Source of the DNA: Strigamia acuminata
Lineage: Eukaryota > Arthropoda > Chilopoda > Geophilomorpha > Linotaeniidae
Direction of reading: 5' to 3'
DNA: 64,000 bases
NCBI GenBank assembly: GCA_949358305.1
Contig: OX442314.1
Coordinates: forward strand, 63,001,369-63,065,368
Position 1 is the first letter of the stretch; each line of letters starts with the position of its first letter. The position numbers were made by a program, and so were the translations under genes. Below, in pieces: positions 21,488 through 43,600 of the stretch. The notes under the pieces were generated by a model. The model was not told the origin of the DNA. It made no database searches and saw nothing but the letters and a program-made list of their open reading frames with translations.

Positions 21488-21499
21488 TGGTAGCAGAGG
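21488..21499 (+). promoter_or_regulatory. Copia A primer-binding site
   Basis: TGGTAGCAGAGG, the usual Copia primer motif complementary to an internal fragment of initiator tRNA-Met. It is shared by elements B and C. Confidence 0.85.
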
Positions 21500-22351
21500 A
21501 TGGTTGCGGCCAGGCCAACCTGTAATTTTGTGGTTTGAAGACCAGAGAGCGGACATTACCGGCGAACGAAGTCGCGACGTGCACGATTCGACCCGCAGCA
21601 GACGCGAGGCGCGAATCGCCGGGAATTCGTCAGGAAAACAACTTCAATCGACGTTGGATAGTTTACTCAGGCAGTAAGAACACTTGTCGAATTTTTGAAC
21701 TGATTTTTGGCAGAATTATAAGCCACTTTATTCGAGAAACGAGCCACGATGATTTCCGAGATGACGTCACCAGCCAAGATGGCGGCGCCCAAGGAAATTC
21801 GCCTTTAGCAGCAGAAACGAGTTGTTTCGTCGTCGAGACGTTCTGCAGCGGCGGAACAGACATCGTGGGACCGTTGGACATCATTTGGCAACGCCAACGA
21901 TCGTTTTTGGCAAGTTTTTTGTCGCCAATTTGCGACACGACACCGATTTTCGTCGAATCGATCGCGTTGGACAAACGCGACGAGCAGCGAAGCCGTGTAT
22001 TTGCGCCGGTCGTGCATACACGCGGATTTCAACGCGAAGACCTGTGTGGGCATAAGTTTGCACACAGGCAACAGCAATTTGAACGGCCAGAAGACCAGTT
22101 AGCGAGTTAAACGTACGCGCTGGCATTTTTCCCGAGGTTTTGTGCACGGAGCACATCCTACGAAGGTGCGGGCGAGCACGTTGAGTCGACACGCATCGAT
22201 TTCACGACGTGGGATCAACGCGGGAGATTTGCGACGCAAACCAACCCGCAAAACAACGGAATTTCATCTTGCCAGCAATTTATTAGTTTTAAGTTGTCGA
22301 AATTCCTTGTTAATAATATTAAGGTTTTGTTTTGGGGACCCTTTGTATATT

Positions 22352-22496
22352 CGGTACCCTTTAGCCATTCGGCTAGTACCGTCTCATTTCGATCTGGGCT
22401 TGTTCGTGGCCAACTAGCCGTCCCGCGGGCCTCAGTGGTGCCGATCGGAAGCTAGTAGAGCGACCAGATTCGAGTAGTTGTGCTCTCTTATAGAGC
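22352..22496 (+). ncRNA. Structured leader RNA of Copia A (two hairpins)
   Basis: Hairpin 1: CGGTAC (22352-22357) pairs with GTACCG (22376-22381), and inner TAGCC pairs with GGCTA around loop ATTC, with a CCTT bulge on the 5' side. Hairpin 2: GCTCT (22482-22486) pairs with AGAGC (22492-22496). Equivalent hairpins with different bases but preserved pairing occur in B and C about 100-260 bases before the first ORF. Likely a packaging, dimerisation or translation element (inference). Confidence 0.7.
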
Positions 22497-22649
22497 TGTA
22501 CCAAGTGGGGAAGTTGTGCATTGTTTCGCCTAACCTTTTGGGGGTTTGCAATTTGCAAAAGTGTTATTTGTGCTTCAAATTGTGCGGCGAAATTATTTTT
22601 GTGAAAAACAAGTGCATTTATTGGAAAAACTTCACGAAATTGGACAATT

Positions 22650-25600
22650 ATGGCGTCGGATGACAAATACGACGACTATAAATCGATCAAGAAACTCGAC
22701 GGGACGAATTATACGACGTGGGCTGTGCAAGTACATTTATTGTTGGCGCAGCAAGGCGTGTGGGATCACGTCACCGGTACCGAGACCGCGTCTGCTGCGA
22801 CCGCCTCAGCCAAGGAAAAACGCGACTTCAAGGTGCGCGAAAACCGTGCTTGGTCCACAATATGTTTGAGTTGCGGCGAATCGCAACAGATTGTGGCCGT
22901 CGCGCAGGATTCATCCAAGAAAGCGTGGGAAGCGCTCAGAGCGTCGTACCAGCCGACGACGCGCGCCCGAAAAGGTCGTTTGCGGCGAGAATTCCTCCAA
23001 ATGAGGTTAATGGACAACGAGGAAATGATGTGCTTCTTGGCTCGGGTCGACAGAAAAGTTTTGGAACTCAAAAACGTCAAAGTCCTCCCGACAGATGAAG
23101 ACATCGCATTCCAGTACATGGATTTTCTCCCTGCACAGTACGAAACTGTGAAACAAATAATGTATCACTGGGAGGATTTGGACTTTACTACGGTGAAAGT
23201 AAAAGAAAGGTTATTAGGAGAATATAACCGTTTGTATGAATCTTCGGACAATTACGGAATGAGTAAACCGGAATCAGTTGACAATGCGGGTGCATTCTTT
23301 GGAAAAGGTCGTTTTCAGCGAGGGAAAAGTGGAAATCAGCCCTTTACACCTCGCACATGTTTTAGTTGCGGTGGTACAGGACATTTCGCACGCGAATGCC
23401 CTACACCGCCTAAACAACAAGCCAATGTGCAAAGTCAACGAGGTGGCACCTCTGCACAGCTTGCAAAAGGCACTGCACGAGGACGTGGTCGAGGAGGAAA
23501 GACCAAACAGGCAAATATGGGACAATTGGACATTTTTGATGAGCCATTGACAATGTATTCAGCGGCAGTTCATCAGTCTACAGAGGAACAAGTCACCATT
23601 ACGCCACCATTGTCTTTAATGTCACATTGTGATTTTGATCTGCAATGGTACATAGATACCGGAGCGACAGATCACTTTTCATTTAATAGAAGTTGGTTTG
23701 TAACTTTTAAGCCACTGTCCGGCTATAGTGTCCAGCAGGGGGAAGGAAAGTCTAAAATAGAAGGCATTGGCAACGTGTTGATCACTTCTTGTTATGGAAA
23801 CAGATTGCGGAAGATCACACTGCAAAATGTTTATTATGCGCCAAATTTTAAGAAAAATCTCTTATCGCTGGGCCGGACAGATGAAGCTGGCTTCACAACT
23901 TTTATTAAGAATGGAAAGTTGACCATGTACAAAGACCGAATTAATGAGCCCTTCATTGTTGCAGATAGAACAAGTGACCGGATGTACAAGGTTAACTGCA
24001 AAATGGAGGCCAATATTGTAAACACAGCGGCACCTTCTGCGCAACAGAGTGCGGCTGTGGAAATCAATTCGGTCAAAAATCTTGTAAAAAGTGAAAGTGT
24101 CATTAATCCATTACTAAAAACAGTAGATTTTAAGGCAGCTTTACTAAACACATTAAGTGATGCAGGGAAACCTGTAATAAGTAAACCCGTGAGCGTAAAT
24201 GCGCTAGCGAATGCGTCAAACATCAAGAAAAGCGTTTTAAGCAATAATAACGGGCAGAGTGATTTAAATGGGGGAAAAGTTGAAATTGAAAAGATCAAAG
24301 TGAAACCACAGCCAATGGACATTTGGCACTCTAGAATGGGACATTTCAACGCAACTGGGATTGCGAAAATGGAAGTTTCACCCGATATTTTCGGAGTTAA
24401 GCTCTCCGACAAGAATCTTTCGCCTTGTGATGCGTGTTCAAAGGCAAAGAGCACTAGGGCAAGCTTTCCCCCAATAGCGGAAATTTCTACCAAGGAAATA
24501 TTAGAAGTAATCCACATGGATCTGTGGGGCCCTCAACCATTTAAATCTTTGGGTGGGGCCAGTTATTATTTAATAATCGTGGACGATTACTCACGGTTCA
24601 TGTGGGTGGAAATTATCAAGAACAAGGGGGACACATTTGAGCGTTTCAAACGATGGCAAACAGAAGTTGAACGCAGCACCGGGAAAAAGGTCAAATGTAT
24701 TAAGACGGACAACGGTGGGGAATTTGTCTCGAAGAAGTGGGATGATTATGCGTCTTCTATCGGGATGAAGTGCATAAAAACAAACCCCTACTCCCCGGAA
24801 ATGAATTCCGTGGCCGAGAGAGCCAACCGGACTATTGTTGGGGGAATTAGAGCAATGCTCTTCGAGAACAATTTTCCACGGGGTTTATGGGCAGAATTGG
24901 CCGTGACTGTTGTCTATCTTAAGAATAGGTTCCCACATGCGAGTTTGGGTGGGAAAGCCCCTTATAATTTATTTTACAATAAGAAATTGTCGCTGAGACA
25001 TTTGAAATGTATCGGTTCCAAAGTTTACGTGCACATTCCTTCGCAAACAAGGAGAAGCAAATTGGAAAAACGGGCATGGCCTGGGGCCCTAGTGGGCTAC
25101 GCGGTTAGAACGCGTGGATATCGAATTTGGGACCCCAAATCCAACCAAGTTATTGCTTCCAAGCACGTTAAAATTAATGAAAATGTCTTTTGGCACGAAT
25201 CAGTGCAATTGAATTCAATTTCATCCGAACCAAATTTTGTGGGGTCATCATGGGATGATGATTCGGATGATGAGGTTATTCCTGCTGTCCAACAGCAATT
25301 ACCTCAACAGGTGCCCCCTGTTCTAAAAGCGGCGGCTCCTATTCCTCCTCCGCTGCCTAAAGCAGCAATTCCAGCCCCTGTGCCTCAACAAAAAGTTCCC
25401 AACCCCCAGTTGGTTCAGCAGGTACAGCAAGTTGTACAGCCTGAAATTGGTGATGAATTGTTAGCCGCAGAGGCTGTGGGTGGGGATGAAGAGGAGGAAG
25501 TGATACAGGTTCGGAATGAAGAGGTCCCTGCGGTGCCCCCATTACTGAGAAGAAATCCACCACGGGGTGATGGAGTGAAGGGGGACACGGCGCCACGTCC

Positions 25601-27266
25601 GAAACTAAAGGCTTTAGATATGTCTAAATGGGAAAGAAGAGCAACTGTCAGGCAAAGTGGCGAAACAGCGGGACAAGTTGATGTTCTATACATTTCACCG
25701 CTGAGAGACAGAATCCGCAGTCGGATTGACGTTGTGCGTTGGTGCAACGAAGAAGGGTACATTTATGATGGGGGATTGTTTGATTTCAAAACAGCTGATG
25801 AAACCATTGGGTTTGCTGGTCATGCATCCGTTGAACCGGACACCTTTGAAGAAGCTATGTCCGACCCGAACAAATCCGACTGGCAGGATGCTATGGATGA
25901 CGAAATCAATATCTTTAATGACAGAAAGGTTTACGAGGAAGTTGATAAAACTGAAGGGACGAATTTACTGGGAACAAAATGGATTTATAAAATCAAGCGT
26001 GACCATACTAGGGCAATTAAGCGTTGGAGAGCACGTTTAGTTGCGCAAGGTTTTGGGCAGAAAGAAGGAGTTGACTTCACTGAGATATTTTCACCAGTGG
26101 TCAACTTTGTTCTTGTACTGATATTCTTTTGTTCTCTTGTGGTTCTGCAAGGTTGGCGAGATACACATCTCGATATCAAGTCTGCGTACTTGTACGGAGA
26201 CCTTGATGTGCCACAATACATCAAAATCCCGAAGGGCTTCCAAACCGAGAAGAACCAACACAAATGTTGGCGACTAGTCAAGTCCCTGTACGGCTTACAC
26301 CAGTCCGGCAGGATGTGGTATTTCAAGCTCCACGAACGACTACTAGAAATTGGGTTCACTCCAGTCTTAGGACTGAATTGCGTATATAATTACGGCTCAG
26401 ATGCCGTCCTTTTGTTTTACGTGGACGACATTGTTTTGTTTAGTCGTGATGCTTTCGTTGAACAATGCATTATCGAGTGGATCCAAGAGAGCTTTGAAAT
26501 TGTCAACCTTGGACCGGTGACTCTACTATTAGGGATTCATTTTGAGAGGAAAAATGGGGACATTTTAGTACACCAAAAGAGTTATATTGCGAAATTAGTT
26601 AAGAAATATGACATTGATCCGTGCCATAAAATTAAAATCCCGGTTACTGTTGGCACCATGATCCAGAAGGTGCAAACAGGCGAGCAAATTAACTCAACGT
26701 TCCCGTATAGGTCCCTGGTGGGAAGTTTACTGTTTATCGCGAACAGAACGCGCCCAGATATCCTTTTCAGCGTCATTGTGTTATCTCAATACAATGAGAC
26801 CCACTCTAACAGGCATGTTAAGATGCTGATACAGGTGTTGAGATATCTGGCGAATACCCCCAATTACGTGATCAACTTAGCGAATTGTAAAAACAACAAT
26901 TTAACAGTTTACACCGACGCGTCCTTTGCTTTGGACCAAGACAGCAGAAGAAGCTTTGGTGGTCACATAGTGTATTTGGGAGGGGTTCCGATTTCATGGA
27001 ATTGTAGAAAACAATCCATGACTTCTCTGAGCATTATGGAGAGCGAGTTTCTCGCGGTTGTCGATGGCGTACGGGAAGTGATATGGCTTGAACGTTTGTA
27101 CAATGCCGATATCATTCTATGTTTTGACCGAAGCGTTCCTTGCGTCTATGCCGACAGCATGCCGGCAATCAACTATGCGAAAAATAAAATTGAAAACCGT
27201 GCAAACAAACATATAGATGTTAAATTGCATTTTCTCCGCGATTGGTTCGAAAGAGGAGTTTTCAAC
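22650..27266 (+). CDS. Copia A Gag-Pol polyprotein (main part; last 35 codons at 39468-39575)
   Basis: ATG 22650; 1539 codons to the B insertion. Order: Gag of the UBN2/DUF4219 type; CCHC knuckle C-F-S-C-G-G-T-G-H-F-A-R-E-C at about 236; protease D-T-G-A-T-D-H-F at about 335; GAG-pre-integrase and HHCC (W-H-x-R-M-G-H at about 560, C-D-A-C at about 592); integrase with D of H-M-D-L-W-G-P, D of K-T-D-N-G-G-E-F and E of V-A-E-R-A-N all present; Pro/Gln-rich linker; an MBD-like module at 994-1046; RT with Y-V-D-D at about 1257; RNase H with T-D-A-S at about 1421. Deleting B with one TCAAC copy restores the phase into 39468. The whole protein would be 1574 residues in one frame, without the frameshift Gypsy G uses. 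No inactivating mutation apart from the insertion is seen. Confidence 0.93.
25629..25787 (+). other. Methyl-CpG-binding-domain-like module in Copia A
   Basis: Residues 994-1046 of the polyprotein follow the MBD pattern W-x6-R-x-S-G-x2-A-G-x2-D-V...P...R-S-R...F-D-F. Against human MeCP2 numbering, W104, R111, D121 and R133 (the last three contact methyl-CpG) fall on W994, R1001, D1011 and R1023 with identical gapless spacing (7, 10, 12). The module lies between integrase and RT. Confidence 0.7.
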
Positions 27267-27700
27267 TGTAGAGTTTAGGGTCAAATATTGTCACAGTTCC
27301 ATTACTTCGTGCGTTTCTGAATTAGCGCGATTGTTACGCGATTAGTTTATCATTGTATCATGTCCCGAAATTTGCAAATCAGTTGTTATTGTTTTTATAA
27401 ATTGCGTGTGTATGTACCACAACTGATTTACTTCTATATAATGATTTGTCTAATTGTCGCCTGCTCAAATGAGCATTTTGTGTTTTAAGAGTTTGTTTTG
27501 ACATTGTACAGGACAAATCAACTAAAACATAATATTGATTTGTCCTCCTGATAATTTGTGAGGTCAAATAACCTCAAACCGTGTATGTCGTACTCTCACA
27601 TGTTTTTCCACTGCAATAAAGATGGCGGCACAATTTGTGCTTGTAATGCAAAACACTGGAAATAGGATTGGACTCACTTTATTTGATTTAATGGCCTACA
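27267..27700 (+). repeat. Copia B 5' LTR
   Basis: TGTAGAGTTTAGG ... GGCCTACA. It contains GCTC-AAAT-GAGC and the GGACAAATCAA...TTGATTTGTCC stem-loop (27511-27545), CAATAAAG and AAGATGGCGGC at 27619. Confidence 0.93.
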
Positions 27701-28515
27701 AGTGGTAGCAGAGGCTTGCGTGGGTGAGTTCCTGTCGAAATACATTCTTCCTCGGCGATTTTCCACGTCTGGAGCGGCCACGACGCACGGAAAACGAGGG
27801 GCGGGCGATACGAAACGTTTCCCGCACGTCGCCGAGCAGTGAAGTCCGCAAATTGCGACCCGAAGCAGGATCGATCGTTTTGGACGGATTTCATTCGAAA
27901 ACGGTGTTGAATCACCGTAGAATTAGCTGTATAAACAGCAGGAACACAGTGAAGTACTTTTTGCATTTATTTCGGCGTATGATAAGCCATTTTTCTTGTT
28001 TTCATTCGTACGATGACGCGTCATTCCAAAATGGCGGCGCCCAGTGCGACCTGTGTTTGAGGACGGATTCGGACTGTCATCGAGCCAACGTGTGGATCCC
28101 AGCGCTGGAATTAACGACGGGGGACCATAACAAGACCCAAGGAATCGATTGGGACTGGTTTCGAGACGATTTGAAGGATTTTTCATTGAAAACGAAGCAA
28201 TTTTCGTCAGCGGCGATCGAGATTGATTTCCGCAACGTTCTCAAGTCGTCGCTCGCCTATTTCGAGCAGGATACGAACGTACGACGTTCGTACAACGAGC
28301 AGAGCATCGGTACGGGTCAATTTGGATCGATATTTTCCATTTTTGGACGCGTTTCGTGCGACGAGCCGAAACGCATCGCGGATTTGCACGTGAAGTGTAT
28401 CTGCGCATCGCTGGGACCGGTTAAGCCTTGTGCCATGTGCACAAGTGAAAGTCAACGATTTCCAGCACTGAAAACATCACAACTTGCCACCTTCACACCG
28501 TATAAGTGTATATAT

Positions 28516-28993
28516 TGTTGGAATTTGGAGCAGTCATATGGTGCCAGCTTGTTAATGTTGCATGTTTCCGGATATAGTGCGACAACGGCGCATTGCGTTC
28601 ATATTGTATTCTTGTCTTGATGTCGGGTGTCAATTGCTATTGACTTTTATTGCGTGTTACGTTATGTCAATTGGCACATGATTTGCGATACTTAGCGTTT
28701 GCGTCGTCTGCTCGAAAGAGCTGATTGTTTAGTTATTTTTGGTCTGCTATCAATTGATAGTATGAGTCTTTTATATTGTTTATGTAAAGGACAAATCAAT
28801 TCTGTTGTCAAATTGATTTGTTCTCACCTTTTATGATTTGTAGACTTGTGGAGAACAAATCCCAAGTCAAATCACTTGCTCTTAAGTTGGCAACCAATAA
28901 AGATGTCAGCCACCACTTGGATAGTATGGTGACATATGGAAAACATGTCTCTGGCTCCATTTCTCAGCACACACACGGTCTATAGTTTCTATA
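28516..28993 (+). repeat. Element C 5' LTR
   Basis: TGTTGGAATTTGG ... TTTCTATA. Contains GCTC-GAAA-GAGC, GGACAAATCAAT...ATTGATTTGTTC (28788-28824) and AATAAAGATG near 28898. Confidence 0.9.
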
Positions 28994-28994
28994 G

Positions 28995-29006
28995 TGGTAG
29001 CAGAGG
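28995..29006 (+). promoter_or_regulatory. Element C primer-binding site
   Basis: TGGTAGCAGAGG one base after the left LTR, the same initiator-tRNA-type site as in A and B, so C can use the same primer. Confidence 0.85.
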
Positions 29007-30422
29007 ATGGTTCCCGTGAGTGCTACGCAGGTTTAACGCCAAAATTCGGATTCGCGACGATTTTCTGGCCAGAAACGTCTTTTTCGCGTCGACAGGAATC
29101 ACTGGAGCGACGGGCGGCAATCGAGAGACGTTTCTTCCGCACGGCAACCGAGATTTGCGTGCTTGGTTCGGCAGAGAAGTCGGCGAATTGCGAACGGAGC
29201 AGCGAGAGGCGGTTTTTCAACGAGTTTCGACGAGAAACGAGTCGAAATCAGCTTTGGACATTAGCCAAAGACAGTAAGAACATTGAGAATTATATTTTTG
29301 AGTTTATTTGGCAGTTTGTCAGCCATTTTCGTCGATATAAATCAACGATGGCGCGTCATACAAAGATGGCGGCGCCCAGTGCGGTTCTCATCAGTAGCCA
29401 AGTTTAGCCTGTTTTGAGGTCGCCCAGCAGTTTACAACTCTGGAATTGTCGTCGTTTTAGTGAAACAAGGTACGGCGAATCGATTGGAAGCGGTTTCGGA
29501 AGGATTCGAGGACAATTTTTGGTTGAAAACAAGGATTTTCGGCGGCGACGAGAGCGAACATAGTTCGCCAACGTTTAGAAGCACGATTCACGTATTAAAT
29601 ACGTGCCCACCGATTCGAAAACGTTTAGGAAACGTATTTCGGTGGAGAGAGAAGGTTTTTGGTGTCCGGGACACGGAAAATAAACGACGAGCGTCGGCGA
29701 TAGAAGCGACGGACGAAAACGGCGTTATTTACGAGGGAACACGTCGTAGGAAGTGGAATACATCCGCTGGATTTACCAGGGACGGTAGGAATACAATTCC
29801 CAAAGTATTTATTTCGAATTTTGTGCAGGAAAATAAAAGGAAACGAACGGCGCATTTTTCAATTTTTCCCAAAATGGCGGCGCCCATCGCAATACGACTT
29901 TGAGGCCGCATTTGGACTGTTTTCGAGCCGAGAAGTGGTTGGCAACGCTGGATTTACCAACGTGGGACCACACAAGAGTCCAAGGAAGCGATTGGGATCG
30001 GTTTGGAACCGATTCGAGGCATTTTTCGACGAAAACGAAGAGTTTTTTGACGGCGGAAATCGGGATTGATTTCCACAACGTTTCGACGACGTCGCTCGTG
30101 AATATCGAGCTGGATACGAACGTACAACGTTCGTACAGTAAGCAGAGCAGCGGTAGGAATCGATTTGGATCGATATTTTCCTGTTTTGGACGCGTTTTGT
30201 GCGACGAGCACAAACGCATCGCGGATTTGCACGTAGAGTGTATCTGCGCATCGCAGGGACCGGTTAAGTCTTGTGCCAGGTGCACAAGTGAATTGCAACG
30301 GATTTCAGCGTTGAAGACAACACTGAAGTCATCTTCACAGCGATTTAGTGTATTTATTGATTTATTGGGTCGAAATTATTTGTTAGAATTAAGGTTTTGT
30401 TTTTGGGGACGATTAGTTTGTT

Positions 30423-30563
30423 TTCCGCCCTTTACGCAGTCGCGTAGCGGAATCCTATTTCCACACAGGCTATTTCTGGCCACCAAGTGTCCCGCGGGCC
30501 CAGGAGCACCGGTCGGAACTTAGGAAATACTGTGTTGGAGTTTTGCATCTCACTTAGTGAGAT
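30423..30563 (+). ncRNA. Structured leader RNA of element C (two hairpins)
   Basis: Hairpin 1: TTCCGC (30423-30428) with GCGGAA (30447-30452), CCTT bulge, inner TACGC with GCGTA, loop AGTC. Hairpin 2: ATCTCAC (30547-30553) with GTGAGAT (30557-30563). Every stem is perfect although the bases differ from A and B. Confidence 0.7.
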
Positions 30564-30663
30564 AAGTCCAGGGTGGATTGTGATTTTTCTCCTTCATTTT
30601 GGTTGGGGTAAATTGTGTTTTTGTGAATTTTTCAAAGTGAAAAGTGAACCCAACAAATTGAAA

Positions 30664-31452
30664 ATGTGTTTTGTGCCTTCACTCAGTTTGGTGGTGAATT
30701 TGGTGTGGCTTGGTAGTGCAAATTTCGTGCAACAAGCGTTTTGTGCAATAAGAAGGTCTTTAACAGACAATGTGAGTGCCTGCAACAAGCAGACAATGGA
30801 TGACACACACAAGGCACAATTGGAGATGAAAACACACGAACAGAATGTCTTTAACGGACAGGCAGTGTATAACACACTTAATGAACAATTCAAAAGGAAA
30901 ATTAGTGTTCTTGGAAAAGAGAAATTTGATTTGTGTTTTGATTATGACAAAAATGTATTGTTACTAACCCATTTAGTCTGTAAGAGCGCATTAACAGAAA
31001 ACATTGATGTTATGGCAGGGGCCATTAGTGATCTAGTTTTGACACTTTGTGCAATGCATATGCATGTGAGGGAAGCGAATGGGGTTAGCAGTAACAAAGT
31101 GCAGGGCACTAGTGATGGTAATCAGAACAGCAACATGGTTGATTCAAATATGATTTTGAATGCCATGAATGATGTGCAAAACATCAAATCCCAACATGGA
31201 CACGGGGATTTAGAATTTATGAACAAGGTTCAAATTAGAAAAGGAAATAAAGAATTGAATTTCACCACAATTAAAGGTGGTGACCCCCTTAATGGCAATG
31301 GGAAAGAGAATAGATTTGCAAAAATGGAATTTTTGAACCAGGTTCAAAATAGAAAGAAAGAGGGGGATCCAAAGAGAAGTGATCTTTTGAGAGAGATTTC
31401 AGGGAAATCCAAAGGAGGTTTGAGAAACCAAAAGGTCAAGAACAAGAATTAG
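30664..31452 (+). CDS. Element C ORF1, unknown protein
   Basis: ATG 30664 is the start I prefer. It is the position that corresponds to the gag start in A and B, just after the shared leader. An upstream in-frame ATG at 30487 lies inside the hairpin region. 262 codons to TAG 31450-31452. No CCHC knuckle or protease motif. It has a hydrophobic N-terminal stretch, a helical middle (around 30880-31070), a Lys/Asn-rich tail with two similar blocks (E-F-M-N-K-V-Q-I-R-K and E-F-L-N-Q-V-Q-N-R-K), and then basic residues. It does not look like the Gag of A or B. Being open and attached to young-looking LTRs suggests it is functional in the source element (inference). Confidence 0.6.
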   Translation: MCFVPSLSLVVNLVWLGSANFVQQAFCAIRRSLTDNVSACNKQTMDDTHKAQLEMKTHEQNVFNGQAVYNTLNEQFKRKISVLGKEKFDLCFDYDKNVLLLTHLVCKSALTENIDVMAGAISDLVLTLCAMHMHVREANGVSSNKVQGTSDGNQNSNMVDSNMILNAMNDVQNIKSQHGHGDLEFMNKVQIRKGNKELNFTTIKGGDPLNGNGKENRFAKMEFLNQVQNRKKEGDPKRSDLLREISGKSKGGLRNQKVKNKN

Positions 31453-33262
31453 ACAGAGTGATCCCTTGAATTCTGATGTTAAAAATCAGAAACAGTGTTC
31501 TAGAAATGTCACAAAGCTGAAAGAAAAGCTTAACAAGGACAGGGTCCTTCCATTCTCATTGTGGCATGCCCGGATCGGGTATTTAAATGAAGAAAATGTT
31601 CACGCCATGAATGGATCACAAAGTGTGTTTGGTGTCCGATTAGAAGACACGGGGACCACCCCTATAACAGGGGACTTTACAAATACAGATATTTGCCCAA
31701 CACACAGAGATGCTGACAGGAAAGCTTTAGAAGCTATACATTTGAGTGTCTGGAGGGCCCCAACTAGGGAGAAATACATCATTATAGTCGATGATTATTC
31801 TGAATACACATGGTTTAGACCATTAAAGGAAAACAGCATTTTAGTGGAATTTCAAAATTGGTTAGCTGAAATTAAATGCTTGAGAGGAACCGTGAATAAA
31901 GTTTATTTGGGCCCTGGGATGGATTTTTCCACAGAAGAATTGACAGCATGGGTAGAAGTAATGGAGAATTTTGGGATTGCAATTGACAGTGTAGATTCTA
32001 ATAACCCGATGGCTGACTCCATCTCTGAGAGGGCTAATGCAGATATTGCAAACGGGGTGGAAAGTTTGATTGTAGAGAATAGATTCCCCAATAATTTGTG
32101 GTTGGAACTGGCCAACACAATGGTCTATTTAAGAAATAGAACCCCCAGAGTCAATTTAGACTGGAAAACCCCATACAACGTATTGTATGACCGATGTGTA
32201 TCGGTACGGCATCTCAGATGCGTAGGTTCTAGAGTTAAAGTTGCCCACATTAGCAATGGGAAGAAGTGTTCATGGATGGGCGCTCTAGTTGGGTATTCAA
32301 CATCTAATAGGAAATACCGGGTCTGGGACCAAGCAAGGGACAGAATTGTTCAAACGAATACGGTACAGATACATGAGTGGAGTTATTGGCACGAGGGGGA
32401 ATTAAAACCCTCTCTAGAATTTGCCAACTTAGACAATGGCATTGGAAGTTTGGAAGTTGAAATTCTTTCAATGGTTGAAGTGCCAATATCCCCTCATCAA
32501 GAAGTCCCCTCAACATTAGACTTGTTGAATTTAGAGAATCCCCCATTGTCGTTAAGTGAAGAAGTCGACATTATTAAGTGCGAAAGTATTAAAAACGAGG
32601 GGGAACATTTAAGTAATGAAGAGTTTTATGAGGGACTCAATTGTGAACAGGAGCCTTCCACTTCAGTAGACATAGTGGAAGATGAAATTTCCCCATTGGT
32701 TGAGACAGGGGGGGAATTTAAAAAGAAACCGAAAGAATTGAAACCAGAGGAGATTGACACGAATAATTCCGATATTATTGCGAACAGAAGTGAAAGATTA
32801 GGACAGTTTGCATTGGAATTTGAGCCCGAATCTGGTGAAGGGTTTAGACAGATCAATTCCACGAAAGTTTGCGAGATTTCTTCGACGTCACTGGAAGGTG
32901 ACATTTCCCCGACACAGATAGGTGGGAATGAGTATAAAGTCATGAAGACAGAGGGGGAATGCGGAAAGACCAAAAGACGTAAGAAAAGGTCTAAGAAAAA
33001 CAGGAACATCGCTTTAATGGAAACAAATGACATTGAATGCGAATTGACGGCTGGCGAGCCGAGTTGTATTAGTCTTAATGTTCTGACCGAAGGGGATACG
33101 AAATCCGAAGAGGGAAACGAGAAGGAGAATGATGTTGTGAATTCCATCGTCAATAGGAAATCTAATCCCTTGTGGTTTGAACTAAGCGAAGAGGATAAAC
33201 GAACAATAATAGATGAGTTAGGATTCACATGGGACGAAAACTACATTTACCCCAAATATTAG
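31424..33262 (+). CDS. Element C ORF2, integrase-derived protein lacking catalytic residues
   Basis: The frame is open from 31424, in +1 phase to ORF1, and overlaps its end. The first credible initiator would be TTG 31466; the first ATG is at about 31607, so +1 frameshifting or an unseen splice is likely. Numbering from 31466 (598 residues): a GAG-pre-integrase-like W-H-A-R-I-G-Y at 33-39, where the second zinc His is Tyr and the C-x2-C is absent. The integrase fold follows (I-I-I-V-D-D-Y-S, W-L-E-L-A, S-V-R-H-L-R-C-V-G-S, M-G-A-L-V-G-Y), alignable with A and B. The first catalytic Asp is Ser94 and the second is Gly149; only Glu188 remains. Residues 330-560 are acidic and then Lys/Arg-rich. 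The last residues (I-I-D-E-L-G...Y-I-Y) resemble the end of the MBD-like module. A capsid-associated, targeting or regulatory role is possible; strand transfer is not expected. Confidence 0.75.
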   Translation, partial: ETKRSRTRIRQSDPLNSDVKNQKQCSRNVTKLKEKLNKDRVLPFSLWHARIGYLNEENVHAMNGSQSVFGVRLEDTGTTPITGDFTNTDICPTHRDADRKALEAIHLSVWRAPTREKYIIIVDDYSEYTWFRPLKENSILVEFQNWLAEIKCLRGTVNKVYLGPGMDFSTEELTAWVEVMENFGIAIDSVDSNNPMADSISERANADIANGVESLIVENRFPNNLWLELANTMVYLRNRTPRVNLDWKTPYNVLYDRCVSVRHLRCVGSRVKVAHISNGKKCSWMGALVGYSTSNRKYRVWDQARDRIVQTNTVQIHEWSYWHEGELKPSLEFANLDNGIGSLEVEILSMVEVPISPHQEVPSTLDLLNLENPPLSLSEEVDIIKCESIKNEGEHLSNEEFYEGLNCEQEPSTSVDIVEDEISPLVETGGEFKKKPKELKPEEIDTNNSDIIANRSERLGQFALEFEPESGEGFRQINSTKVCEISSTSLEGDISPTQIGGNEYKVMKTEGECGKTKRRKKRSKKNRNIALMETNDIECELTAGEPSCISLNVLTEGDTKSEEGNEKENDVVNSIVNRKSNPLWFELSEEDKRTIIDELGFTWDENYIYPKY

Positions 33263-33489
33263 AGAGTGAATGATGAAGATTGCATGTTAATCTAATTGGA
33301 GTCTTTGATCTCAGGCGTGTCATGGGCAAAAATTATGTTACCGATTTGCTTTATGTCACAACCCTAGGTAATTATATATTCGGGGCGCATTCGGAGTAAT
33401 GTCGCAGTTTCGGGGTTGTTTCAAGTTGTCTGGGTCGTGTCACGTTGTTTTTGTCCCAGTGGGGCCCCATATGCTGCTCAGAGGGGGTA
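33263..33489 (+). other. Element C 3' untranslated region
   Basis: About 230 bp between the ORF2 stop and the right LTR, ending in the purine tract AGAGGGGG. There is no room for RT or RNase H. Confidence 0.7.
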
Positions 33490-33967
33490 TGTTGGAATTT
33501 GGAGCAGTCATATGGTGCCAGCTTGTTAATGTTGCATGTTTCCGGATATAGTGCGACAACGGCGCATTGCGTTCATATTGTATTCTTGTCTTGATGTCGG
33601 GTGTCAATTGCTATTGACTTTTATTGCGTGTTACGTTATGTCAATTGGCACATGATTTGCGATACTTAGCGTTTGCGTCGTCTGCTCGAAAGAGCTGATT
33701 GTTTAGTTATTTTTGGTCTGCTATCAATTGATAGTATGAGTCTTTTATATTGTTTATGTAAAGGACAAATCAATTCTGTTGTCAAATTGATTTGTTCTCA
33801 CCTTTTATGATTTGTAGACTTGTGGAGAACAAATCCCAAGTCAAATCACTTGCTCTTAAGTTGGCAACCAATAAAGATGTCAGCCACCACTTGGATAGTA
33901 TGGTGACATATGGAAAACATGTCTCTGGCTCCATTTCTCAGCACACACACGGTCTATAGTTTCTATA
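33490..33967 (+). repeat. Element C 3' LTR
   Basis: 478 bp, matches 28516-28993 without a difference seen. Confidence 0.92.
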
Positions 33968-34031
33968 TATATTTGGGTTCGAAATTATTTGTGAATATTA
34001 TTAAGTTTTTGTTTGGGCAAATTAGTTTATT

Positions 34032-34179
34032 CTGTACTCTTCGGGCAGTCGCCCACGTACAGTCTCATTCCGGTCTGGGCTTGTCCGTGGTACAAGGTAG
34101 CCGTCCCGCGCCACCAGGTTGGCGGTCGGAAGCTATCAGGACGACCAGATTTGGGTTTTTAATCTCTCTTATAGAGATT
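34032..34179 (+). ncRNA. Structured leader RNA of Copia B (two hairpins)
   Basis: Hairpin 1: CTGTAC (34032-34037) with GTACAG (34057-34062), inner GGGC with GCCC around loop AGTC, TCTTC bulge. Hairpin 2: AATCTCT (34161-34167) with AGAGATT (34173-34179), loop CTTAT. Counterparts are in A and C. Confidence 0.7.
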
Positions 34180-34286
34180 CCCCCGGGAAGAATTGAATTT
34201 TTCGCCTCATTTTTGGTGGGAAAAGTGTTACATTTTGCAAGTGTTGTGATTTTAAGTGATTTTGTGTTTGTGCTACGCATCGTGTC

Positions 34287-35597
34287 ATGGCTAGTGCAGT
34301 GATGGAAGATTTTTCTAAGCCATTTAATGCAAACATTCACAAACTTGATGGCAGTAATTACGACTCATGGGCAGTCGATATGCAGCTCTATTTAGAGCAC
34401 CAAGGAGTCTGGGCTCACGTGGTTGGAACCGAGCCAGCGTTGGCCGTGACGGCCTCCCCGAAAGAAAAGCGTGATTTCCAGGCACGTGAATCACGTGCAC
34501 GTTCCTCCATTTGTCTTGGCTGTACAGAAGCCCAGAAAGGAGTTGCAGTTGCACATAAAACTGCAAAAGAAGCGTGGGACGCGTTAAAAACAGCGTACCA
34601 ACCCACTACGATGGCGCGACAGGCGAGATTGCGCCGGGAGTTTTTACAACTCCAGATGCTCCCAGGAGACGACATGGTCGTGTTTACTTCCAGAGTAGAC
34701 AGGAAGGCGATAGAATTAAAGGACGTTGACATTACTTTATCGGAGAAAGAGATCGCGTTCCAGTATTTGGATTTCCTCGGGCCCGAATACGAGGCATTGA
34801 AATCCATTGTGTACCACTGGGATAAGGCCGACTTTACAGTGGCGAAAGTCAAAGAAAGGCTCCTTGCTGAGTATAACAGGACCCATGGTGGGACTGCGCC
34901 GGGGGATGCGACTGCATCTGCAACGGGAGCTTATGCGACGAACCCACAACGGTCACAGCAAAAAGGAATTGTTTGCTATAATTGCGGCGGAAAGGGACAC
35001 TTTTCACGCGATTGCCCTTCTTCAAAACAGGGTTTCACGATTGTGCCAACAAAGTCAGCATCGAACATTTCTCAGTCTCGTGGGCGCGGCAAAGGCCGAG
35101 GCCGTGCACGGGAAAGGAAAGCTAACCTCAGCTCTTCTGAGGAACTGGAAGGATTCTACACATCGCTTCACCAGACTATTGGACAATCAACGACAACCGT
35201 GTCTTCATTTGTAACATCATCGAGGGTGCAAGACATGGCGTGGTACGTGGACACTGGGGCCACGGACCATTTTACCTTCACTAAACAGGGTTTTGTGAAT
35301 TATAAGCCTCTTACGAATTATTCAGTGCGATTGGGTGAGGGTTCATCCAAAATTGATGGGGTAGGAGATATAAAGCTCGAATCAAGGGATAAATCTCAAG
35401 GGCACCCATTCATATTAAAGAATGTGTTTTACGCACCAAATTTTACTAAAAATTTGATTTCCCTCGGTCGCACTGATGAGGCTGGGTATATAACCCGAGT
35501 TGGTGAAGGAAAAATGGTCATTTTCAAACAACGGATTACGGAACCAATACTGACAGCCATGCGTCAGTCGGACAGAATGTACAAGAGTTCTTGTTAG
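34287..35597 (+). pseudogene. Copia B Gag and protease segment, ends at an in-frame TAG
   Basis: ATG 34287, 436 codons. Gag close to that of A (L-D-G-S-N-Y-D-S-W-A; Q-P-T-T-M-A-R-Q-A-R-L-R-R-E-F). CCHC knuckle C-Y-N-C-G-G-K-G-H-F-S-R-D-C at about 230, protease D-T-G-A-T-D-H-F at about 319. TAG at 35595-35597 interrupts the frame just after the protease region. The same frame continues open directly afterwards, so this is a point nonsense codon, not a designed gene end. A has sense codons at the same place. Confidence 0.88.
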
Positions 35598-36908
35598 ATT
35601 ACGGTTCCTTCTGTAAATGCAAGTGCAATTCCGACGCATGCGGAAGCACCTGGCATAAGTAATCCGATTACTAACCAATTAAGTGTTACTGAAAATGTTG
35701 ATATTGTTAATAATAGCGTTTTATCTAATCCTAACCCAAGTGAATGCGTAACGCAGGCGAGCGAAATTATGAAACCGTTGAAAACACTGAAAGGCATTAA
35801 GGGCAGTAAAACTCCAAAGACTTTAACTGTTTCCGGCGGAACTGACGTGAGTGCGCTTCCGGCCGACGGAGTTAAAGGGGTTCAACCTAATGTAAAGGCA
35901 GATAAAGGGTTAGATATCACTTATTGGCACGGCCGGATGGCACATTTACACACGAAGGGTATTGTTGACATGGAAAAGTCAACAGATATTTTTGGAGTGA
36001 AATTGTCTAATAAAGACATGGACCCGTGTGACGCGTGCATCAGAGCGAAAAAGACGCGTGCGGGGTTTCCTCCGATCGGACAAATTTTGACCAAAGGCAT
36101 ATTAGACCTTGTTCATATGGACGTCTGGGGAGCAAGCCAAACTAAAACCCTTGGGGGTGGGAATTATTTCCTACTTATAGTGGACGATTTTTCACGCTTT
36201 ATGTGGATATACATCATGACGAAGAAAAGTGATGTATTAGGGATTTTTAAGATTTGGCAAAGAGAGATCGAACGCTCTACATCTAAAAAGGTCAAAGCGG
36301 TACGAACTGACAGAGGGGGTGAATTTATATCCAAGGAATGGGAAGACTATGCTCAACAAGAAGGAATTAAATGCGAGCGAACGAATGCATATTCGCCCGA
36401 AATGAATTCTGTGGCTGAGCGGGCCAACCGCCTAATCTTAGAGGGGGTGAGAGCAATGTTAATCGAAACGGGTCTTCCCAAGAGGTTGTGGGGAGAGTTA
36501 GCGGTAACTCTTGTTTATATTAAAAACTTATACCCACATCCGAAATTGAATAATCGTTCCCCCTATAATGTATTTTATAACAAAAGGGCTTCAGTTCGGC
36601 ATCTAAGATGCATTGGGTCAAAGTGTTATACCCATATCCCTGCCCAACAACGACATAGCAAATTAGAGCCAAGAGCTTGGGTTGGAGCCCTGGTAGGTTA
36701 TTGTACCGATACAAAGGGATATCGAATATGGGACCCATCACATAACAAGATTTATGGTCGAAACATGTTACCGTTAATGAGAATGAATACTGGTATGAAA
36801 AGGGGAATAACATTAATGGGAAAGGAAATGAACAGCCACAAGGTTTTGAATACTTTAATTGGAGCGATCTCGAACATGAGTCAGATGATGAGTCACCAAC
36901 TCCAGTGA
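35598..36908 (+). pseudogene. Copia B integrase segment, ends after a frameshift
   Basis: Same frame as 34287-35594; the first ATG after the TAG is 35769. Contains W-H-G-R-M-A-H and C-D-A-C (zinc region), and integrase with H-M-D-V-W-G, R-T-D-R-G-G-E-F and V-A-E-R-A-N, so the DDE triad is intact. Comparison with A shows a single-base frame change close to 36752-36762, after which this frame reads meaningless residues to 36908. Confidence 0.86.
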
Positions 36909-39007
36909 GATTGGCACCGGTTCATGTTCCTGTTCCTATACCAAGCCAACCTTTACCGGGTCAGGTTCCTTCTGTTCAGGTTCCCCCTGTTCCAGGTGCC
37001 GGATTACCTGCTCCGACGGTGCCCACTACATCAACAGCATTGCCAGTCACGAAACTGCCATTACCCCAGACCCCAAAACACACGGTTTTTCAAAAACCAC
37101 GGTTAATCGAATTTACTGGAGAACCAACTGACGAAACCAGTGATGATGAAGAGGTTTTTCAGGAAGCATTGTTGGCTTCTCCTAACGTTAGAGGGGGTCA
37201 AGGGGATGTAACAATTGGGGGTGTTCCTTTATTGAAATTGAACATGAATGACTGGGATGTGAGACCATATATTAGACAAACGGGAAGAGATGCTGGGACA
37301 ACCTATGCGCATTATGTAGCGCCAGACAAGAAAAGGCTCCGCAGCAGAATTGAGGCATTGCATTGGTGTCAAGCAAACGGATACGAGTTTGAGGCGGACT
37401 TGTTTGATTTTTCGAGGAAAAGTCAACATGAAGATCTTCCGAACCCATTTGCTGGTTGTTATGCGCTTGAGCCCAACACCTACGAGGAGGCAATTAAAGG
37501 CGAACGAAAGTCTGAATGGGTTGACGCAATGCAAGAAGAAATTGATATATTTAACGAAAGGAAAGTCTATGAGGAAGTTGATTGTGAGAAAGACCAACAA
37601 TTGCTAGGCAGCAAATGGATCTATAAGATCAAGAGAGATAATACCGGGGTTATAAGACGTCATCGAGCGAGACTGGTCGCCCAAGGTTTCAAACAGCGAC
37701 CAGGTATAGATTTCACTGAGGTGTTCTCACCGGTGGTGAATTTTGTTGTTATCTTGGTGTTATTTTGCATGTTGGTTGTCCTCATGAACTGGAGAGACAC
37801 ACATGCGGACATAAAATCCGCGTATCTTTATGGAGACTTGGACGAGGTCCAATATATGAGCATTCCAAAGGGGTTTCAAACGCAGCAAAATGTTGGAAAG
37901 TGTTGGAAGCTTTATAAAGCTTTATACGGCCTGCACCAGTCGGGCCGTATGTGGTTCGAAAGGTTGCACGACAGACTGTTGCACATAGGATTTAAACCGG
38001 TCCCTGGTTTTAACTGCGTTTATTGTATGGACAGAGATGTAGTGTTAGTCGTGTATGTCGATGACTTAGTCATCTTTTCACGCAACGAGAAGATCGAAAA
38101 AGATGTCCTGTCCTGGATAACAGACCATTTCCAAATGGTAAACCTTGGGCCAGTGACCCTTTTGCTAGGCATAGAATTTACACGTGTGAATGGCAAGATC
38201 TTAGTCCATCAGCGCAAGTATATCGAGAGATTGTGTGCTCATTTCAAAATCGATGGGTCGCATAAAGTTCATTTACCTGGGGCTGTAGGTACTATGATAA
38301 TGGGGGTGAAAAAGGATGAACAACTCGACACCGTGTTCCCCTATAGATCGCTGGTTGGTAGTCTTCTGTTTTTGGCGTCGCGAACCAGACCAGACATACT
38401 ATTTTTCACTATTGTGCTCTCCCAATACAACGAGCGACATTCTCAGAGACATATTAATATGTTATTGCAAGTACTCAGGTACTTAAAGAACACTGAGGAT
38501 TATTGTATTGATCTCTCGAGATGCAAAAGCGCTTTGCTGACGGTATTTACCGATGCGTCATACGCTACTGATGTAGACCAACGAAGGAGTTTCGGAGGTC
38601 ATGTAGTTTTCCTGGGCGGTGTTCCGGTTTCGTGGTCGTGTAGAAAGCAGAAGATGACCACGTTATCCGTGATGGAGTCAGAGTTTGTGGCCATTGTTGA
38701 TGGCGTCAGGGAACTGATATGGCTTAAGAGGCTTTTCAATATGTCGGTGATGTTCGACTACTTTGGGAATTTGCAGCCCTGTGTCTTAGCTGATAGCACA
38801 GCGGCGATACAATATAGTAAGAACCGCGTAGAAAATAAAGCGAACAAACACATCGAGGTTTGCTTCCATTATTTACGCGATCTGTATGAAAGCAAGATCT
38901 TTGATATCCGGCACGTTTCTGGAAAACTGAACGTAGCCGATTTGTTAACTAAATGGTTGGCACGCCCACGTCTGACCGAATTATGTGAGCACATCTTTGA
39001 TATGTGA
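36905..39007 (+). pseudogene. Copia B MBD-like module, RT and RNase H
   Basis: The frame is open from about 36755; the first ATG is 36905. A Pro-rich linker (residues 3-60) and acidic patch are followed by the MBD-like module at 117-169 (W117, R124, R146 retained; the D121 equivalent is Tyr134). RT follows with A-D-I-K-S-A-Y-L-Y-G-D-L-D and catalytic Y-V-D-D near 38060, then RNase H with T-D-A-S near 38555 and the C-terminal H-V-S-G-K-L-N-V-A-D-L-L-T-K-W motif. It is intact internally, but normally expressed only as part of the upstream polyprotein, so it is cut off by the frame change at about 36757. Confidence 0.88.
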
Positions 39008-39028
39008 CAAAATTGCCCAGAGGGGGTG

Positions 39029-39462
39029 TGTAGAGTTTAGGGTCAAATATTGTCACAGTTCCATTACTTCGTGCGTTTCTGAATTAGCGCGATTGTTACG
39101 CGATTAGTTTATCATTGTATCATGTCCCGAAATTTGCAAATCAGTTGTTATTGTTTTTATAAATTGCGTGTGTATGTACCACAACTGATTTACTTCTATA
39201 TAATGATTTGTCTAATTGTCGCCTGCTCAAATGAGCATTTTGTGTTTTAAGAGTTTGTTTTGACATTGTACAGGACAAATCAACTAAAACATAATATTGA
39301 TTTGTCCTCCTGATAATTTGTGAGGTCAAATAACCTCAAACCGTGTATGTCGTACTCTCACATGTTTTTCCACTGCAATAAAGATGGCGGCACAATTTGT
39401 GCTTGTAATGCAAAACACTGGAAATAGGATTGGACTCACTTTATTTGATTTAATGGCCTACA
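39029..39462 (+). repeat. Copia B 3' LTR
   Basis: 434 bp, matches 27267-27700. Followed by TCAAC target duplication and the remainder of the A coding region. Confidence 0.93.
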
Positions 39463-39467
39463 TCAAC

Positions 39468-39575
39468 ATCAAACATGTTCCTGGTGAATTGAACATCGCG
39501 GATTTGATGACGAAGTGGTTGCCGCGCAATAGATTATGTCAGCTCTGTGAGCATATTTTTGTGATTGTCAAATAG
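39468..39575 (+). CDS. Copia A polyprotein, C-terminal 35 codons
   Basis: After the B insertion the A frame resumes with I-K-H-V-P-G-E-L-N-I-A-D-L-M-T-K-W, the conserved end of Copia RNase H polyproteins. It stops at 39573-39575, shortly before the purine tract and right LTR. Confidence 0.9.
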   Translation: MKHVPGELNIADLMTKWLPRNRLCQLCEHIFVIVK

Positions 39576-39592
39576 TTGCGCAAAGGGGGATT

Positions 39593-40029
39593 TGTTGGGA
39601 AATGCCCAACTGTTTGAGCTTTATTAGTTGCATGTTTGCGGTTAAATGCAACAGGCGTGTCTTTGCAATTCCGTGATTTAGCTGCATTGGTTGATAATGA
39701 CTTTTAACCTACTTCCCTGTGTTAAGTACCCCAACCAATGCAATCTTTAGCAATGACATGCCCATATATCGTCTGCTCTAAAGAGCTGCTTATTGTTTGG
39801 TTATGCCAGTCTTTTGTAAAGGACAAATCATGTTTTCCCAACAATGATTTGTTCTATCTTAATCGTTTGTGTAGGGGAGAGGGAAAATAACCTCGAAGCA
39901 GGTGTATTTTAGTTGCTTCTCTCATCTCGATAATAAAAGATGGCGGACGCGAAATGCGGTCTCCCGCACCTGAATTAAACCGGCTCTCACCTGATTTAAT
40001 GGCTTCCACATCTCTTCAAATGCACAATA
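39593..40029 (+). repeat. Copia A 3' LTR
   Basis: 437 bp, differs from 21049-21485 at three positions I could see (GAG/GAT, GTATAG/GTGTAG, CCTAAA/CCTGAA). CACTT at 40030-40034 follows. Confidence 0.9.
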
Positions 40030-40034
40030 CACTT

Positions 40035-40643: not shown

Positions 40644-43600
40644 TTAATTCATATCCACAATTTCAGGATTCTTAGAAATTCTTGTTACAGAAAAAACTTC
40701 ATAAGAAAAAAAAGAATAATAATTATAAAAAGCATAAATACCAAAATCGTAAAAACTAGGATCACAATCAAAATCGACTGTATTACTTTCAAGATTATCG
40801 TATGGGTGGTGGTGAACGACATTAACATTGGTCAGATATTGTCTAATTTTCCACAATTCTTTATTTTCGGCAAATAAATTCACTTTATCCCAATGATTGT
40901 AACGGAGTCCATTCAACAATTCAGACAGCGTTGACTTACAACGCAGAAAATTATCAAATCCATGTTGAATGAAATAAACAATTTTTAAATGAGACTGTCT
41001 TTTAATCATCCACATATCATTCATGTACTTGAATAAATTTAAACGCAAACCGCGCGCGTTTTCAATTACCAATTTTACAATTGAGAGACTATTGATGCAC
41101 TTTGCAATTAGCATTTCTTCTCGATTGGCTGGTTGAAATTCAAATGTAATATGTAACATTTGTAAATTACTGAATACAGAGAATGCATTCCTCTGGTATA
41201 AGTGTATTGAATCTGATCTAAATGGTATCAACAACCTTTTAATAGTGTTAAAGCCGCTCCATGTTGGGTGTTTTGTTATCAAATCATATAAATCAAAGAA
41301 ACGACAATCCAATTGAGAAGGCTCTGATCTAGTTATTGCTTCATTAGGCGACATTTTAAGGTCCCGGTGGTGCATGAAAAACTTAAAAAATTGTACGGGC
41401 TGCTTGGAAACAAATTCACACTTGCTCATTGCCAGATTTTTGTATTTCTTTGTTCCATTCTTGGTAAGTTCCTCTATGTTAATGGTACAATTTTTTAGGT
41501 ACAGCACGGTCAAATCAATTGAACGAGCAGCAGGGCGGCAAAAGTCACTCATGTTTATGTTTAAGGTTCCCTCGAGGAACAGTTGTTGAATTTGATTTCT
41601 TTCAAGCAGTCTTATGACAATTTGTTTCTCAAATTCTGTTTCGATCTGAACGCGTAAATATCGATATTTAATTTGGCGGAATCTTTTATTCTTTGTTGTT
41701 GCTAATAAAAATTGTTTTGAATTTTCTATATTGAGCATCTTCACATCACAAGATTCGATGTCTTGTGATAATGCAACATAATTTAGACATTCGTTTATTG
41801 TACCATCAAATGGAACTAGGGATGAAAAGATTTGTTGCATTTTGCAATGAGCATATGAATGAGCTAGAAACGAGTTTTCAGAAACTGATAAAAGTTTTAG
41901 ATGCAAACGAATCTTATTTTCATTTGTGACTAATCCTGAAGATGGTTTAGCTTTAAAATAAATTGACTTAATTTGACCGCAATCAATTCCATATTTTATC
42001 AGTTTTTTATTCTTTGGACTTACATTAATATTGGTGTAGTCTGCCGATAAAGAGGAAGGAATAAATCTTTTCAGATATTTGCTGCTAATAATTGAATGTT
42101 TCGAACAGTCAGCAACAAGTTTTGCTGTCAACTCAAATTTCAAAGAAAATAAGTAACTGTACAAGTCAACTTGGCACAAAACAAGATCCAAGTCATTTTC
42201 CATCAGACCTGCAAGAAAGGGCAGGACCAATGATGTTCCCTCGGTATCAAGAAAATGATTAACAGTTAGTTTTAAATCATCGTCATTGTTTGCAGATTTG
42301 TTGGATTTTAAGTTCATCCAAACTGCAAAAGCAGCTGCAAATTCCAACATAGACATATGGAATGCCTCGTAATGGTTTCTTGATTCCTTAAAGAATGTGA
42401 TTTCTGAATGTCGGATCAAAAACCCAAGTTCAAAAATCTCTTCAGTCAACTGATCACAATCAAAATTCAAATCATTGCTTGATATCTTTTGCACACATGA
42501 CATTCCAAATTTGAACATATTCTCCTGAATAATGTTAGGTGGATTGTTGCAACAAAACAGATCAAACTCGTTTTCAATTTCCAATCCACGTTTGAGATAA
42601 CTGTGCTTCAAAACGGAATTGAACAGTTTTTTGTAAAACTGTGTTTTTGTTTCGAACTGTCCGATGGTTTTGTCTTGTTCTAGTATTACAGGTATCAGCA
42701 TCAGAAAAAGCGGCGAATCAAATAAGTCAATCTGAGATGACAGAGCTAGCGTTATGTCATCAACAATGGCTTCTGGGAGAAATTTAATTAAAAATTGTCG
42801 CTTTGCATCTTCGCCTTTAACACCTAATATCGATATTCGCTTATCGTAATAATTACGTTTGGTTTGTATTCCGAATAATTGTGCTTCGTCTTCAATTCTT
42901 ATCTTGTCCAAGCCTGTTCTACAGAATACAACTGCTGTCGCAACATCGTATATTTTCTTATGAAGTAGTTTCGTTATTTCATGACGTTTTTCTACCGACA
43001 CTTCGTCTAATCCATCGAGTATGAATATTGTATCCTGCTCGTGAAACTTTAACATTTGGATAACACTGGTAACACCTTCAACACCGACGTGATCCGCAAT
43101 TTGTACAACAACATCTTCAATACTTCTTTGTTGTAATTCTCGAAGGGGAATGAAGAAGGCAAATTTGAAGTTGATGTATTCCTTGTTTGTAGCCCAGTCG
43201 TGCGCTAGTTTTGTAGCTAGAGCAGTTTTGCCAAATCCAGGTTGCCCTTCGATAAGTATTCTAGTTGGTTTTATGTTGTCTACATGTTTGAAAATGTCTT
43301 CTGTCTCTACTGATTTGTCTGACTCAATCATTTGGAGTTTGATGAAATGTTCCACAATTGACAAATCGTGGCCTTCTTTCGCCCAAGCTACTTTGGGTAA
43401 ACTTAAAGTTCTATAAAGGTGCTTCAGTTTTCTCTGAAATACATCGCATGGTTTGTTACCATCTTGGTCATTTACACAGCAGGGTCTGATTTGCTGGGTG
43501 GGCTCACTAGCAGAGGCTGTAAAGATGTATACCATGTTACTATTTTACTTTAAATTTGTATTCACTAAGTGAATGAAGCTAACCTTGCACATCTGGTGTG

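Follow-up and report, generated by a model that had tools for sequence, protein, structure and literature searches.

A 64,000-nucleotide stretch of the genome of the centipede Strigamia acuminata (contig OX442314.1 of assembly GCA_949358305.1, forward-strand positions 63,001,369 to 63,065,368; hereafter the window, numbered from its first letter) contains, at 28516-33967, a Copia-derived long terminal repeat (LTR) retrotransposon that we call element C. Element C belongs to a large family that lacks reverse transcriptase (RT), and the protein of this family includes a Copia integrase which, judged by comparison among its members, has been kept under purifying selection after losing its catalytic site. 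Selection on a dead integrase suggests that the protein helps these elements to exploit the machinery of their relatives. We consider it somewhat more probable than otherwise that C is a parasite, putatively packaged by Copia helpers, whose sole protein is a repurposed integrase. The broader proposal, that such elements form a class of LTR-retrotransposon parasites which has radiated and whose only protein is a dead integrase with new conserved active-site residues, acting in trans on helper integration complexes, strikes us as an even call.

The paired LTRs, target-site duplication, primer binding site and polypurine tract that identify C as an LTR retrotransposon had been listed in an earlier note on this DNA, and all are present. 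The 5′ and 3′ LTRs (28516-28993 and 33490-33967, plus strand, as for the other oriented features of C) are 478 bp long without a single mismatch, and the duplication TATAT can be seen directly in the sequence on either side (28511-28515 and 33968-33972). The primer binding site TGGTAGCAGAGGATGGTT (28995-29012) is of the initiator Met-tRNA type, which we take to be the complement of the animal initiator Met-tRNA, and the same kind of site is found in relatives. The polypurine tract CAGAGGGGGTA (33479-33489) adjoins the 3′ LTR; it is the same in most of the relatives fetched and almost the same in element B, the autonomous-type Copia element into whose leader C was inserted. Behind a noncoding leader (28994-30663), large parts of which are common to autonomous Copia elements, C carries two open reading frames (ORFs): ORF1 (30664-31449), with a hydrophobic start and no known domain, and ORF2 (31424-33259, 612 codons), which in this copy is displaced from ORF1 by a net +1 shift.

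The absence of protease, RT and ribonuclease H (RNase H), also stated in the earlier note, is borne out, and gag is missing as well: Pfam gives SH3_retrovirus in ORF2 alone and nothing in ORF1, and tblastn with the proteins of the window's two autonomous-type Copia elements, A and B, matches C in the integrase region alone. A protease-like peptide picked out by eye in the 3′ untranslated part of C had no Pfam match and was dropped without a formal test; the untranslated sequences of relatives vary in length there. The open frames exceed chance expectation: the ORF1 region is open for 334 codons and the ORF2 region for 612, whereas 5,000 sequences generated for each by a first-order Markov model reached at most 236 and 244, respectively. 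Codon-usage scores were not decisive (z 1.4 for ORF1, 2.34 for ORF2 and -0.59, below its own shuffles, for the C-terminal part of ORF2).

ORF2, regarded earlier as an unknown protein, is a Copia integrase whose catalytic site is gone. It is 34% identical to the integrase of A over 323 residues and 31% identical to that of B over 307, and it contains an SH3-like retroviral domain (Pfam E 1.2e-7). The family profile matches the Ty1 integrase core in the PDB (7z0h_W, E 3.4e-4), and the Pfam integrase core (rve) is matched by none of 17 family members at E 0.01. In C this pseudo-integrase, comprising the integrase core and the SH3-like domain, spans 31559-32401. Seven residues define the zinc finger (HHCC) and the catalytic triad (DDE) in A and B, which retain them all; from general knowledge of retroviral integrases, these are presumably the metal-binding and catalytic positions. 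C has lost five of the seven: the second His is Tyr, both Cys are gone, and the first and second Asp are replaced by Ser (31745-31747) and Gly (31910-31912), respectively. The same inactivation recurs among 17 distinct aligned sequences (16 loci and C), all of which have Tyr at the second His and Ser at the first Asp and lack the CxxC; the second Asp is Gly in 16 and Ser in L014, and the last Glu of the triad is retained in 14 and is Lys in three. The residues that took over the former active positions are thereby themselves conserved. Split copies (L021, L023, L026, L028 and L030) were left out of these and the selection counts, as were L016-L018, which show no difference from L015 over 5,656 or 5,854 bp. 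By homology of its encoded domain C is a Copia element, and it has no RT of its own downstream of the integrase; autonomy would also take a catalytic integrase, and both Cys, the second His and the two catalytic Asp are missing in 17 of 17.

A tree places the dead integrases on one side of a branch (support 100/100) and groups them with A and B (99/98); their stem measures 1.94 changes per site and is followed by far shorter branches. The tree includes no more than seven further integrases, among them a fragment of 74 residues, and the program flags its long branches. On this evidence the dead integrases form one clade, and the dead site appears to have a single origin. No relatives were found in the viral contigs searched. 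Four distant integrase relatives lie in assemblies filed as bacterial; the contigs of L001 and L002, filed as Labilibacter sediminis, encode Copia-like integrases and possibly represent eukaryotic contamination.

When ORF2 was used as a query against the 237.5-Mb host assembly (73 of 2,557 first-look candidates scored), at least 135 match rows were obtained, some loci yielding several, and 121 of the 135 are free of stops. We retrieved 24 loci, of which 20 stood at the top of the match list and four ranked lower and were picked for diversity. The two-ORF programme proposed in the earlier note does not hold for the family, since one frame of 776-1198 codons spans the ORF1 and ORF2 regions in 19 of the 24 (16 of 21 distinct relatives when the identical L015-L018 are counted once), which indicates that the family protein is one chain; the other five are split, as C is. 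The start MCFVPS lies inside the frame in 16 of the 19 single-frame relatives (in L016-L018 by identity to L015). ORF1 accordingly corresponds to the N-terminal portion of a frame that is single in the family, and its separation from ORF2 in C reflects a frame break of this copy or an assembly error or, less likely, recoding. The protein is laid out as an orphan N-terminal region, the dead integrase, an acidic linker and a basic tail, followed in some members by a degenerate methyl-CpG-binding domain (MBD). The basic stretch KTKRRKKRSKKNR of C (32966-33004), for which the majority in the family alignment reads KTKRRKK, is a possible nuclear localisation signal.

The earlier note had also argued that C is no simple deletion derivative, and C is indeed no one-off deletion but a member of a large family without RT, none being found between the LTRs in any of the 24 fetched loci, the copies to which this statement applies. 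The fetched loci match A in the integrase part alone plus, in nine of 24, the MBD part (38-49% identity). Matches to gag and RT fall outside the LTRs where an LTR pair bounds the frame; at loci without such a pair, their placement was judged by distance from the frame and leader. The LTRs and ORF1 of L013-L036 appear to be patchworks of a small number of alternative modules, a pattern that suggests recombination between subfamilies. At G000:C7:352553-370834, four dead-integrase copies follow one another at a spacing of about 5.7 kb, each with one TAG in its matched stretch, and are probably a tandem array.

That the proteins of C may have a job, as the earlier note suggested, gains support from selection on the dead integrase; for ORF1 a clear job is not supported. 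Omega, the ratio of nonsynonymous to synonymous change, was estimated pairwise by the Nei-Gojobori method rather than on a tree, and the disjoint pairs are not fully independent. For the pseudo-integrase, eight disjoint pairs gave 0.21, 0.29, 0.30, 0.35, 0.37, 0.37, 0.41 and 0.43, with upper bootstrap bounds of 0.32-0.68, against 0.63-1.35 when the same pairs were read out of frame. Across the 120 of 136 possible pairs with synonymous divergence (dS) of 0.1-1.2, the median was 0.27 and no pair reached 1. Because the compared sequences all lie within the dead-site clade, this selection postdates the inactivation. Constraint within the family protein is strongest on the integrase core and intermediate in the linker and C-terminal part (0.35-0.71 in seven disjoint pairs). 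ORF1, at 0.54-0.97 in eight disjoint pairs, does no better than its frame controls (0.41-1.03), and four of the eight intervals include 1; over all pairs, its three sections have medians of 0.50, 0.73 and 0.55, and values of 1 or more occur in 1 of 90, 22 of 104 and 3 of 137 pairs. The sequence of ORF1 thus appears weakly constrained, and its frame probably stays open since translation of the integrase part passes through it. Searches for its origin gave nothing firm: a Gag origin reached an hhalign probability of only 0.3, no PDB entry matched, and the four Pfam families that appeared did so in one of 15 members each (E 0.001 at best), none of which holds up. No Gag was found in ORF1 by Pfam or profile comparison, and no Env by Pfam, the one method used for it.

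The family has moved recently. Nine of the 14 LTR pairs that bound the frame are identical, four differ at one site and one has an indel. Duplications of 5 bp match in nine of these 14 elements and 4-bp matches occur in three, where the LTR edge is uncertain; L016, whose 3′ LTR is cut short, and L026 have none. Over 5,854 bp no difference separates L015, L017 and L018, and each is flanked by a duplication of its own (CATTC, TAAAT and AGAAT, respectively); L016 is identical to this group over 5,656 bp. Since the copies have neither RT nor catalytic integrase, another element must presumably have moved them.

Candidates for such helpers are abundant in the same genome. In a search with B-type RT, 64 of 3,297 first-look candidates were scored and many lie in open frames of 1587-1626 codons; in one with A-type integrase, 125 of 5,581 were scored, many in frames of about 1567-1628 codons. 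Element C shares cis sequences with such long-frame possible helpers, as a parasite would. The leaders of B, L037 and L038 are 79-90% identical to that of C at the nucleotide level over 321-493 bp (79-80% over 456-493 bp for B). Just before ORF1, a stretch of about 320 bases shows 86% identity with L038, an autonomous element of B type, and 90% with L037, and in this comparison ORF1 starts close to the position of the gag start; the copy of B in the window matches the same region over 83 bases (73%) and A over 174 (69%). A long open frame in the leader is also common to B and C (61% identity over 151 codons), and long stop-free leader frames are seen at 27709-28515 and 29837-30520. A coding role for the leader frame was rejected, omega being about 1.3 between C and B with stops in several relatives, and it was taken as noncoding.

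Within the leader, a 116-base core (30210-30325) is a candidate packaging signal. It is present in 16 of the 19 leaders given (A, L019 and L022 being the others), on contig C12 precedes a B-type RT by about 3.1 kb, and in L038 has a gag-pol frame behind it. Its predicted fold consists of two hairpin helices with 18 pairs, in which 97.2% of cells are paired. The covariation score is 0.135 against 0.069 in shuffled alignments (0 of 500 shuffles reach 0.135), a signal that is abolished by sliding the pairing partners and that rests on three pairs, in a kind of count that related rows inflate. In addition, L015 has its U5 end and an unusual primer site in common with B. Shared leader, U5 and primer features would fit packaging by B-type elements together with exchange by template switching.

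Two further derivatives carry this leader. L037 (G000:C12:7207400-7211400), the one examined of twelve leader rows in its 88% class, has partial gag, protease, an integrase with DDE motifs and an MBD, and most of its RT is missing. The other, formed by L039 and the first half of L040 (G000:C13:6482600-6509000), has partial gag, a zinc knuckle and a protease-like region without a visible DTG motif, possibly another retained dead domain.

Taken together, these observations lead us to the following scheme. The lineage of C would be a non-autonomous Copia that lost gag, protease, RT and RNase H. Its anatomy suggests transcription from the LTR; the transcript would enter helper particles by way of the shared leader RNA element, be copied by helper RT and be inserted as cDNA by helper integrase. 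At the step of which we are least sure, the pseudo-integrase would serve in trans as a non-catalytic subunit or tether, acting on the helper integrase or on the parasite's own cDNA and aiding nuclear entry, end capture or targeting. The pattern of constraint seems to fit a non-catalytic partner or tether in an integration complex better than a decaying enzyme, because the core, SH3-like domain and basic tail are kept while catalysis and zinc binding are lost.

Several observations weigh against this scheme. The split copies C, L026, L028 and L030 have identical or near-identical LTRs, and therefore recent insertions can be without an intact frame, which tells against a protein strictly required in cis. 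The protein may work in trans, or the elements may do without it, or the breaks may have arisen after insertion or during assembly. No clear amino-acid constraint is seen in ORF1. The pairs compared for selection share ancestry, and the elements recombine. Two counts for the leader core are not above those of the shuffles: 3 pairs are changed on both sides (1.9 in shuffles, of which 101 of 500 match or pass the count), and there are 6 further pair types (6.1 in shuffles, of which 425 of 500 match or pass the count). The primer site and LTR start of C are nearer to A and its leader nearer to B, so that no one helper can be singled out, and more than one type may be involved. Finally, two AlphaFold models were unusable, with a mean pLDDT (the program's own confidence measure) of 32.3 and 37.0.

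The same features can be read in other ways. Dead subunits might poison helper intasomes, limiting copy number or favouring parasite cDNA, and a trans-dominant inhibitor of this kind would likewise keep the core and SH3-like regions while losing catalysis. A dominant-negative protein derived from an element itself is known in Ty1 p22 (PMC4599808). Yet the parasite would itself need helper integrase, and autonomous elements with long open frames are abundant, so we regard inhibition as unlikely. Less likely still, in our view, is a protein that acts on the host, by suppressing silencing or tethering to chromatin, independently of helper integrase. The basic tail and the MBD-like stretch in nine of the 24 fetched loci would suit that role, and the C-terminal segment of Ty1 integrase binds RNA polymerase III (PMC10050235). 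Against it, Pfam detects an MBD at E 0.01 in only two of 17 members, the degenerate version in the dead-integrase member L035 matches a solved MBD at E 0.54, C itself has no MBD match in Pfam, and the strongest constraint falls on the integrase core.

An ordinary deletion derivative with decaying frames would account for the split frame of C and for the five fetched relatives that are split too. For the family this reading is contradicted by omega well below 1 in all eight disjoint pairs, by the many matches without a stop, and by an inactivation that is shared and fixed; at most, individual copies such as C could be explained in this way, and we give it very little weight. Equally improbable, in our judgement, is a true two-ORF layout in C with programmed +1 frameshifting where the frames overlap (31424-31449). 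Neither frame is closed within the overlap, and the conserved beginning of ORF2 is not preceded by an ATG (the first lies at 31607), as frameshifting would have it; however, most fetched relatives have a single frame, and the frames of L026, L028 and L030 change at other coordinates relative to the integrase part. The non-catalytic partner or tether in helper integration complexes remains our preferred reading.

The surroundings of C are a nest of insertions. Element A (21047-40031, plus strand; LTRs of 441 bp with 3 mismatches) is interrupted by B (27267-39462, plus strand; identical LTRs of 434 bp, duplication TCAAC), which in turn contains C. Despite its identical LTRs, this copy of B is broken, with a stop after the gag-protease frame (35595) and a frame change in the integrase-to-RT stretch (36743-36905), unlike B relatives with frames of about 1600 codons. 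Both A and B carry an MBD between integrase and RT (25596-25865 in A, 36905-39004 in B; Pfam E 1.6e-7 and 8.7e-5), that of A matching solved MBD1 at E 4.7e-8; by analogy with chromodomains, it is perhaps a targeting module. No report of an MBD in Copia was found among the papers listed in a literature search largely confined to journals outside subscription. Elsewhere in the window, a Gypsy-type element at 8116-18806 has LTRs of 1023 bp with 1 mismatch and minus-strand gag and pol frames of 1027 and 1811 codons, and two minus-strand NACHT-domain genes of about 960 codons each (40644-43535 and 49794-52661) are a tandem duplication with repeated stretches 81-94% alike.

The family has relatives in function among known elements. 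LARD and TRIM elements are non-autonomous LTR elements mobilised in trans and are not known to have coding capacity; in contrast, the C family keeps a frame of about 800-1200 codons (776-1198 in the 19 single-frame relatives) under selection, with omega below 1. BARE-2 and other gag-defective Copia parasites probably use helper Gag, and BARE-2 keeps its pol, whereas the C family is without RT, RNase H and protease. Ty1 integrase is catalytic, and the C family differs from it in the loss of zinc-binding and catalytic residues. Among the papers listed in the same literature search, none described a non-autonomous LTR family based on a dead integrase. Non-autonomous LTR elements are often viewed as passive passengers, and a lineage that sheds all its enzymes while keeping a selected dead integrase implies that a non-catalytic integrase job is valuable to a parasite. 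The idea can be tested, since a single genome offers many diverged copies, plenty of possible helpers and a candidate packaging RNA.

The nearest precedent we found is Athila of Arabidopsis, where non-autonomous families keep Gag or Env frames under purifying selection and recombine frequently (PMC2410132). Whole families without pol, recent insertions, recombination between families and selected intact ORFs are features that Athila shares with the present case; the difference is that Athila keeps Gag or Gag plus Env, whereas the C family is gag-less and keeps a dead Copia integrase. Ty1 p22 offers a second parallel as a non-enzymatic protein derived from a retrotransposon and acting in trans; it is a copy-number control protein that acts on Gag (PMC4599808). 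Ty1 integrase is structured in its N-terminal half, and its disordered C-terminal half contains a bipartite nuclear localisation signal and the polymerase III contact (PMC10050235). Set beside these systems, the C family appears to fall within a known kind, the non-autonomous LTR retrotransposons mobilised in trans, from which it differs in the protein that it has kept.

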